20,276 bases of DNA from a virus. The stretch lies in the IMG/VR virus record IMGVR_UViG_3300042469_000253, positions 1 to 20,276 of that record. The stretch is one strand, 5' to 3'. This document shows positions 13,857 to 14,924 of this stretch, piece after piece. The stretch's first letter is position 1, and each line of letters opens with the position of its first letter. Position numbers and translations under genes: made by a program. The notes under the pieces are model-generated. The model had not been told where the DNA came from. It saw nothing but the letters and a program-made list of their open reading frames with translations, and searched no databases.

Positions 13857-14315
13857 TCATTTAGATTTTTCTATCAAAAGGGTTTTGTCACATCCAATTG
13901 GAATTTTTTTTGGTTTCTTTTCTTCTGGAATTACATTTTCAATTTGAATCTTCAAAATTCCATTAACAATATCTGCCGAACGAACAACAGACAAATCGCT
14001 TAATGTATAAACGTGCTTGAAGTCTCTATTTGCTAGACCATGATGTAAATATACTGGTTCTACTTCTGGTTTTTTAGCGACACCAAAAACAATAAGTTTA
14101 TTTTGAGAAGTTTCCACCCCAATATCATCAGCAGAAAAACCAGCTACAGCAATTTGTATTTCGTAGTTGTATTCGTCTAGTTTTAGGATAGAATAAGGGG
14201 GATAAGAGGGCGCTTTTGTGTTACCAAAAAGCTTGTCCATTTCTTCCATTGTTGAAAATAACCGATCAAATCCAACGGTCATCGGAAGAATATTTTTACC
14301 ATATGCGTAAGTCAT
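13857..14315 (-). CDS. hsp20: Small heat-shock protein, Hsp20/alpha-crystallin family
   Basis: This 152-residue ATP-independent holdase binds unfolding proteins. The alpha-crystallin domain spans about 40-128, with PPYSILKLDEYNYEIQIAVAGF as the first strands, KLIVFGVAK at 73-81 and the hallmark NGILKI at 118-123. A KKIPI segment at 136-140 is a C-terminal Ile-x-Ile anchor for oligomer assembly. The N-terminal arm (VGFDRLFSTMEEMDKLF) resembles the IbpA type. Hsp20 genes are common in marine T4-like phages. The gene has an AGGAG ribosome binding site six bases before ATG 14313-14315. It lies behind a structured leader with a late-promoter octamer and is closed by a strong terminator, so it looks like an insulated single-gene unit between regA and the rest of the replication genes. 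Confidence 0.95.
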   Translation of the reverse strand: MTYAYGKNILPMTVGFDRLFSTMEEMDKLFGNTKAPSYPPYSILKLDEYNYEIQIAVAGFSADDIGVETSQNKLIVFGVAKKPEVEPVYLHHGLANRDFKHVYTLSDLSVVRSADIVNGILKIQIENVIPEEKKPKKIPIGCDKTLLIEKSK

Positions 14316-14469
14316 AGTTTTCTCCTTTTAAAAAAGCAAGAGTTAATAAAATTTGCTTCCCCGAAGGCAAAGCAATTGCTGGTTCCGCCGCCAGCATCCC
14401 TTTTTCGTATGGATCGGTTACATTATACGCTTTCTTTTATTTTAATTCGCTTTAAGCCCCGAACATTTT
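14316..14469 (-). ncRNA. Structured 5' leader of hsp20, candidate cis-regulatory RNA
   Basis: This leader of about 150 bases has patches much richer in G and C than the surrounding DNA. On the minus strand it holds hairpin GCTGG-CGGCGGAA-CCAGC (14395-14378). Next comes a stem TTGCTT...AAGCAA (14375-14353) capped by a C(UUCG)G tetraloop. The AAGCAA arm (14358-14353) can instead pair with a second TTGCTT (14339-14334), which is followed by a U-run and then AGGAG. The two pairings exclude each other, so the layout resembles a switch that could control termination or access to the ribosome binding site. A riboswitch of a kind known from marine phages, or an RNA thermometer, are both possible. No known class is assigned. 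Confidence 0.55.
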
Positions 14470-14477
14470 TATTTATA
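14470..14477 (-). promoter_or_regulatory. T4-type late promoter octamer for hsp20
   Basis: A perfect TATAAATA, the late-promoter element recognised by the T4 gp55 sigma factor, lies on the minus strand in the gap just after regA, about 155 bases before the hsp20 start. Transcription would begin near 14460 and include the structured leader. The octamer also occurs by chance inside AT-rich genes, so its intergenic position is the main support. Confidence 0.6.
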
Positions 14478-14481
14478 TAAC

Positions 14482-14892
14482 CTAATTAACTTTTCTAGAA
14501 CCTATAGAATATTTATGTTCTAACTTCCAATCAAATTTCTCTTTATGCGACAAAACTTTTATTTGGCTCATATCTAAAACTTTATCGCCTATAATGCTGT
14601 TACCAATAACTTTTACTAAATCCCAATCTTGGAGTAATAAAGTTATAGTATTCCTTCTAGCTATATCCGTTTCAGAAATGTCTGAAGTTCTTCCATCCAA
14701 CATAAAAAGTTCTTTAAAATGGAGAATATGATAAAACCCCTGTTTATGTAAAATGTGACAACTTTGCCACAAAGTTTTTTCTTTTCTTGATGCAATACCT
14801 ATTCTAGTTAGAGTTTCTCGAACTTTTAGAAAAGATTCTTCATCAGATAACTTTACAGGAACTCCATACCCTTTAAATAATTCCATAGACAT
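14482..14892 (-). CDS. regA: RegA translational repressor
   Basis: This 136-residue protein binds the initiation regions of early phage mRNAs and represses their translation, including those of the polymerase and clamp-loader genes in T4. The match to T4 RegA is clear. FLKVRETLTRIGIA, QSCHILHKQGFYHILHFKEL and MLDGR occur in the same order as in T4, and ITLLLQDWDLVKV and WKLEHKYSIGSR correspond to its later segments. The T4 protein is 122 residues; this one has a slightly longer N-terminus (MSMELFKGYGVPV). A TTG 15 bases upstream is in frame, but ATG 14890-14892 has a GGAG at spacing nine. A second ATG two codons later is also possible. It directly follows gp62, as in T4. Confidence 0.95.
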   Translation of the reverse strand: MSMELFKGYGVPVKLSDEESFLKVRETLTRIGIASRKEKTLWQSCHILHKQGFYHILHFKELFMLDGRTSDISETDIARRNTITLLLQDWDLVKVIGNSIIGDKVLDMSQIKVLSHKEKFDWKLEHKYSIGSRKVN

Positions 14893-14924
14893 AAAATAAT
14901 TCTCCAAAATTGATATATGTAGAA

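Follow-up and report, generated by a model that had tools for sequence, protein, structure and literature searches.

The stretch of DNA analysed here (the window) is a virus record of 20,276 bases, in which a small heat-shock gene, hsp20, is preceded by a long untranslated leader. The locus raises the question of how synthesis of a viral chaperone is controlled and whether this leader takes part in it. Cyanophages have hsp20 among their core genes (PMC3037559). Nevertheless, no description of its regulation was found in the literature searched, and the literature on cyanophage small heat-shock proteins leaves the leader unmentioned. The best explanation for the locus, to which we give a probability of about 0.8, is that a phage version of the ROSE-type RNA thermometer, extended at the 5' end by phage-specific elements, stands in front of hsp20; its response to temperature would follow from its form.

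Upstream of hsp20 lie regA (PF01818), the clamp-loader gene gp62 and then gp44. The resulting order, 44-62-regA-hsp20, is that of T4-like phages, and the adjacency of regA and hsp20 is also annotated in S-RIM44, S-PM2 and P-HM2. The hsp20 ATG at 14315 is preceded by 154 untranslated bases, in agreement with the approximately 150 given in the initial annotation. Its other landmarks are also present on the minus strand: a late-promoter octamer, a GCTGG/CCAGC hairpin, a UUCG-capped TTGCTT/AAGCAA hairpin (Table 1), and a second TTGCTT copy (14339-14334) followed by a U-run and by AGGAG (14326-14322).

Table 1. Positions of the hsp20 leader elements and of the adjoining genes in the window.
Feature	Positions	Strand	Description or basis
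hsp20	13857..14315	-	152-aa small heat-shock protein; PF00011 and phrog_432 matches
regA translational repressor gene	14482..14907	-	PF01818; directly upstream of hsp20
T4-type late promoter octamer TATAAATA	14470..14477	-	Sequence and promoter scan
5' H-type pseudoknot	14434..14464	-	Hand parsing and covariation in an aligned subset
42-nt block TAACCGATCCATACGAAAAAGGGATGCTGGCGGCGGAACCAG	14379..14420	-	Invariant in the window clade and L090
Hairpin GCUGG/CCAGC, loop CGGCGGAA	14378..14395	-	Similar hairpins in other leaders
ROSE-like hairpin I, stable, with bulged G 14368 and UUCG loop	14353..14375	-	Covariation
ROSE-like hairpin II (putative sensor)	14322..14340	-	Anti-SD CUUGCUU 14340-14334 with SD AAGGAG 14327-14322; bulged G 14337
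Whole two-hairpin candidate thermometer (65 nt)	14310..14374	-	Covariance model R1, 53.3 bits, E 1.1e-10

A selected RNA fold had been proposed for this leader, a proposal that folding energy does not bear out: over its full length the leader folds no more stably than shuffled sequence (z -0.06 and -0.26). The case for the leader therefore rests on comparison, for which hsp20 relatives in viral contigs supplied leaders over a wide range of divergence. Judged from the aligned sequences of relatives, the leader is real and under selection, but the two hairpins of its core do not exclude each other.

ROSE thermometers, for which a definition and experiments are available, are defined by the motif U(U/C)GCU (PMC3669281, PMC11342760). 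Further marks of the class are two to four hairpins, of which those upstream are stable, a single bulged G in the helix that masks the Shine-Dalgarno sequence (SD), and a small heat-shock target gene. In the window, UUGCU (14339-14335) is found opposite the SD AAGGAG (14327-14322), just before the start codon. The pairing of hairpin II across from the SD reads C-G, U-A, Y-G, bulged G, C-G, U-A, U-A. This core is present in 95 of 105 distinct phage hsp20 leaders, compared with 16 of 776 other SD-bearing genes of the same contigs; the nominal p value of 6e-98 overstates independence, the sequences being related. Eight of the 16 cores outside hsp20 belong to the small first gene of an hsp20 operon, one to the likely true hsp20 start of P-HM2 and one to a phage dnaK. 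Among the ten hsp20 leaders scored as missing the core, several have wrong starts or carry variants, e.g., CUUGCCU/AGGAGG.

The structure itself was assessed in alignment A2, composed of 28 leaders, none of which comes from the clade of the window. With the two-hairpin structure, 95.2% of the cells are paired, versus 73.9% in shuffled and 42-59% in slid versions; in hairpin II, MAFFT displaced two rows by a single base, an error that works against the count and not in its favour. Compensatory changes, which the initial annotation had asked for in related leaders, were indeed found: hairpin I has 98.7% of its cells paired and compensatory change in six of its eight pairs. Hairpin II is less variable, with both-sided changes in three pairs, and its anti-SD/SD helix contains an invariant bulged G, flanked by pairs 37-54 and 39-53. 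A single bulged G is also found in the upstream hairpin of 81 of 99 leaders, compared with a frequency of 20% after shuffling. In the window, this upstream hairpin I is stable (-9.6 kcal/mol at 37 °C) and belongs to the covarying kind, and the element stands directly before the PF00011/phrog_432 gene, the small heat-shock target that it would control.

The covariance model R1, based on A2 and thus trained on sequences from outside the window's clade, matches the window (Table 1) and nearly all phage hsp20 loci. Each of the 18 phage records searched gave a match, as a rule a single strong one. R1-positive isolates include S-RIM44, S-PM2, S-H38, P-RSM4, P-HM2, HTVC008M, Melnitz and Atu_ph07, and the positive records comprise phages of Synechococcus, Prochlorococcus, Pelagibacter, Methylophilales and Agrobacterium. 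The related phages in which the element stands before hsp20 come from lakes, oceans and soil. The same phage-only model also detects the element upstream of bacterial hsp20, in 25 of 80 genome loci, with the best matches in Polynucleobacter and marine alphaproteobacteria. By this covariation and these model matches, hairpin I and the SD-pairing hairpin II are structurally conserved ahead of hsp20, both in bacteria and in T4-like phages that infect many different hosts.

Several contigs show particular arrangements. L027 carries a dnaK - hsp20 - clpS-like run (645, 145 and 100 aa) with a ROSE-like element before both dnaK (887-959, 30.4 bits) and hsp20 (2873-2949, 34 bits) on the plus strand. 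In P-HM2 (L245, 478-560), the annotated hsp20 start (478) is located upstream of the ROSE-like element, and the true start is likely about 72 bases downstream, at position 550, behind CTCGCTATAATAGGAG. A small gene (MLNNINTSIDTFQSVKTKFVETYVKNEEL...) sits between the thermometer and hsp20 in L198, L024, L035, L044, L056-L058 and L075, and the thermometer would therefore control this small gene first. Many tRNA genes are scattered along the phage contigs L096, L097, L114 and L123.

At low temperature, hairpin II is expected to cover AAGGAG. Warming would open it stepwise and let ribosomes enter, while hairpin I would stay closed. In the energy model, the median probability that GGAG is unpaired in hairpin II alone rises from 0.08 at 15 °C to 0.27 at 42 °C and reaches 0.62 at 60 °C; for other genes it is already 0.52 at 15 °C. 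The predicted opening is gradual and becomes nearly flat when longer stretches of leader are simulated. For the window, the pairing favoured by the model is a neighbouring register, CUCUU/AGGAG, that lacks the bulge. The lake and sea hosts of these phages seldom meet 42 °C. Energy modelling supports masking of the SD and is no proof of thermosensing. The earlier idea of an RNA thermometer acting on Hsp20 synthesis is thus upheld in form, through ROSE anatomy and covariation across phages and bacteria, and the temperature response is the part that we infer.

The two hairpins might also be mainly an operator for autorepression by Hsp20, with aggregated clients titrating Hsp20 and heat sensing secondary or absent. 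As the main role of the hairpins this is possible, if rather unlikely. The precedent is E. coli IbpA, which represses its own mRNA via the 5' UTR and requires R93 to do so (PMC10474464). The window Hsp20 has an Arg aligned with this residue (motif GLANRDF), at which IbpB has Gln, and the Arg is kept in 96 of 101 phage Hsp20s, although it might be retained for other reasons. The invariant bulged G in the covarying stem of hairpin I is typical of protein sites; however, the hairpin that pairs with the SD is also conserved, which suits a protein-free thermometer. Autorepression is compatible with the thermometer and is a live addition to that model. By analogy with bacterial IbpA, Hsp20 may bind its own leader and repress, and aggregated clients would then also relieve the block.

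Transcription of the element is probably driven by phage promoters. From the layout of T4 late promoters, we infer a transcript start near 14464, the first base of the 5' pseudoknot. A late octamer lies at most 300 nt from 52 of 98 hsp20 genes, versus 43 of 729 others, and an octamer joined to a TTGACA box at -35 distance was found at 12 hsp20 genes versus one elsewhere. Leaders combining TTGACA with the late octamer TATAAATA are seen, e.g., in L158, L016, L022 and L037; the combination is possibly a dual early/late promoter. Phages would thus drive the element from the T4 late octamer, sometimes together with a sigma-70 -35 box.

Between promoter and thermometer, many of these phages carry a domain with a CGGGAUGGGA start and an H-type pseudoknot. 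In the window, P1 (GUUCG/CGAAU) pairs 14464-14460 with 14449-14445 and P2 (CUU/AAG) pairs 14456-14454 with 14436-14434, with an A-rich connecting loop. This is the weakest, reduced form of the family, with a P2 of 3 bp, and it is followed by the 42-nt block. Hand parsing of 21 leaders gave 13 P1 and 16 P2 arm combinations, all complementary, a 100% that is partly built in, as the arms were chosen by eye. In a MAFFT-aligned subset of 12 leaders, P2 is 100% paired with compensatory change in six of six pairs. Its variants in the window clade and L090 are CUU/AAG, CUG/CAG, CCU/AGG and CCAGAU/AUCUGG. RNAalifold detects little covariation in the 5' domain of the window clade because the 42-nt block never varies. 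The block is identical in the window clade and L090, which differ in pseudoknot stem and gene context; either recent transfer or very strong sequence constraint could account for this identity. In L090, a contig without hsp20, the block is on the minus strand, flanked by a porin gene (5980-5024) and by the gene that follows it (4894-4511).

The GCUGG/CCAGC hairpin is invariant within the clade except for one G-C to G-U change, and shows no covariation there. Comparable hairpins with loops ending in GUAA (GCCGG/CCGGC, GUUGG/CCAAC) are found in other leaders. Of 16 phage records, 12 contain the decamer CGGGATGGGA a single time and none contains its reversed control; among 80 bacterial loci, only one has the decamer. 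The bare 8-mer ACCUUAGG proved unspecific as a mark of hsp20, with 22 occurrences near hsp20 and 22 elsewhere. No Rfam family matches the 5' domain.

It is doubtful, and less probable than an autorepression operator, that this domain acts as an independent late RNA of the phage or stabilises the 5' end, with hsp20 merely read through from it. It starts at the predicted transcript start, and its pseudoknot covaries. Four contigs (L083, L086, L092 and L155) keep it after regA without hsp20, L090 has it after the porin gene, and the pseudoknot block of L155 is 92.6% identical to that of L099, versus about 71% for neighbouring coding sequence. Yet the contigs are incomplete and most copies of the domain do lead hsp20. 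Retention in L083, L086 and L092, taken at first as strong evidence, was weakened by the 99% identity of the flanks, which marks the hsp20 deletion as recent. The upstream hairpin of L083 ends in a terminator-like U-run, and L155 has a separate strong terminator-like hairpin after the 5' domain.

The phage-specific structured RNA, a pseudoknot with other hairpins, would be placed at the start of the late transcript, perhaps as a 5'-end guard or folding guide; a guard of the 5' end of late mRNA is a first guess. The suggestion that the leader represents a new class may be right as regards the domain with the 5' pseudoknot, which is without an Rfam match. Tentatively, and with the odds against it, this domain (CGGGAUGGGA or an equivalent start, a covarying pseudoknot, and ACCUUAGG plus GNAA-loop hairpins or the 42-nt block) could be a new structured RNA class that starts the late transcript and works alone as mRNA 5'-end guard, ligand or protein site or released RNA, joined to the ROSE thermometer as a two-input control of a viral chaperone.

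A leader without regulation, offering only a strong ribosome site and an mRNA-protecting hairpin, is improbable. Late genes need stable mRNAs and hairpin I is very stable, but an anti-SD conserved along with the SD predicts poor rather than strong initiation, and other SD-bearing genes in the same contigs do without the anti-SD motif.

The second TTGCTT copy had been proposed to compete for the AAGCAA arm; read against the relatives, it is the anti-SD of hairpin II. The UUCG stem occurs in close relatives as TTGCTT/AAGCAA, ATACTT/AAGTAT, AACTTC/GAAGTT, TATCTT/AAGATA and TTCTTC/GAAGAA. Hence, the hairpin arms, whose loss in relatives had been named as a possible refutation, change together by compensation. 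Because this stem covaries and the second copy does not depart from CU(U/C)GCU in the relatives' leaders, a full alternative hairpin can be formed in the window and the close relative L004 but in no other leader. A riboswitch-like choice of AAGCAA between the two TTGCTT copies is therefore highly improbable and was abandoned: both pairings can be drawn for the window, but the alternative is not conserved in relatives and, at -2.6 versus -9.6 kcal/mol for the UUCG hairpin (37 °C), is weaker by 7 kcal/mol.

The ROSE-type thermometer, the preferred reading, was also compared with catalogued RNA families. In an Rfam search of the window, no family reached its gathering threshold; manA and wcaG, both suggested earlier, were not among the matches up to E 10. 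The fourU type, also put forward, does not fit, the conserved anti-SD motif being CU(U/C)GCU and not UUUU. The suggestion of ROSE fared better in part: no phage leader reaches the thresholds, but several phages give specific sub-threshold matches to ROSE_3 (RF02523), up to 35.7 bits against a cut-off of 43. The search covered 18 phage records, and the matches lie at the spots matched by R1; ROSE_3 has no match in the window's clade. ROSE (RF00435) and ROSE_2 (RF01832) have no match in the window or the phage loci, while the E. coli ibpA leader, used as positive control, was called ROSE_2 at 100 bits. Distant blastn searches of the leader against phages returned chance matches only.

If the thermometer reading is true, phages that infect cyanobacteria, SAR11, methylotrophs and agrobacteria would have their chaperone synthesis directly tied to the temperature of the water or to the aggregation of proteins, and a very common bacterial thermometer class would join the very short list of phage thermometers. 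The comparison suggests that phages retained the bacterial translational control of hsp20 but use their own promoters. The analysis also exposes a covarying pseudoknot RNA that is not in Rfam.

Among known systems, PMC11182007 names as phage RNA thermometers those of lambda cIII and SPbeta blyA, together with a Caudoviricetes sigma-70 leader. The blyA and sigma-70 elements are of the fourU type, and that source describes none as a ROSE element or as standing before hsp20. In the literature found, subscription papers being outside its coverage, no ROSE element is described in phages. Freshwater-2 RNA (RF02980) has a similar SD region, which is mainly what fits, but was rejected at 15.3 bits (E 6.5), far below its cut-off of 49.9. 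The hsp20 leaders of Polynucleobacter and marine alphaproteobacteria have the two-hairpin element in common with the phages (31-52 bits with the phage model). Unlike the phage leaders, the bacterial ones read show no phage 5' domain, and no T4 late octamer was seen in 13 of them read by eye; a sigma-32-like promoter sequence was noted, also by eye, in those of Polynucleobacter.

E. coli ibpA (ROSE_2) and rhizobial ROSE share with the phage leaders the SD hairpin core CUCGCU...AGGAG and a small heat-shock target, and CUCGCUGAUUUCAGGAG, from the SD hairpin in the E. coli ibpA thermometer, can be aligned to the 3' half of R1. Their upstream hairpins differ, and the phage leaders are without a match to those models. 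The short ROSE-like thermometer of Pseudomonas ibpA (ROSE_3) likewise has two hairpins before a small heat-shock gene, the first stable and of AUGCC...GGGU shape, the second pairing U(U/C)GCU with the SD. In comparison, the phage leaders are AT-richer, with a weaker hairpin II, a late-phage promoter and the extra 5' pseudoknot domain. We therefore class the element as ROSE-like in mechanism, and as a variant that lies outside the present Rfam families.
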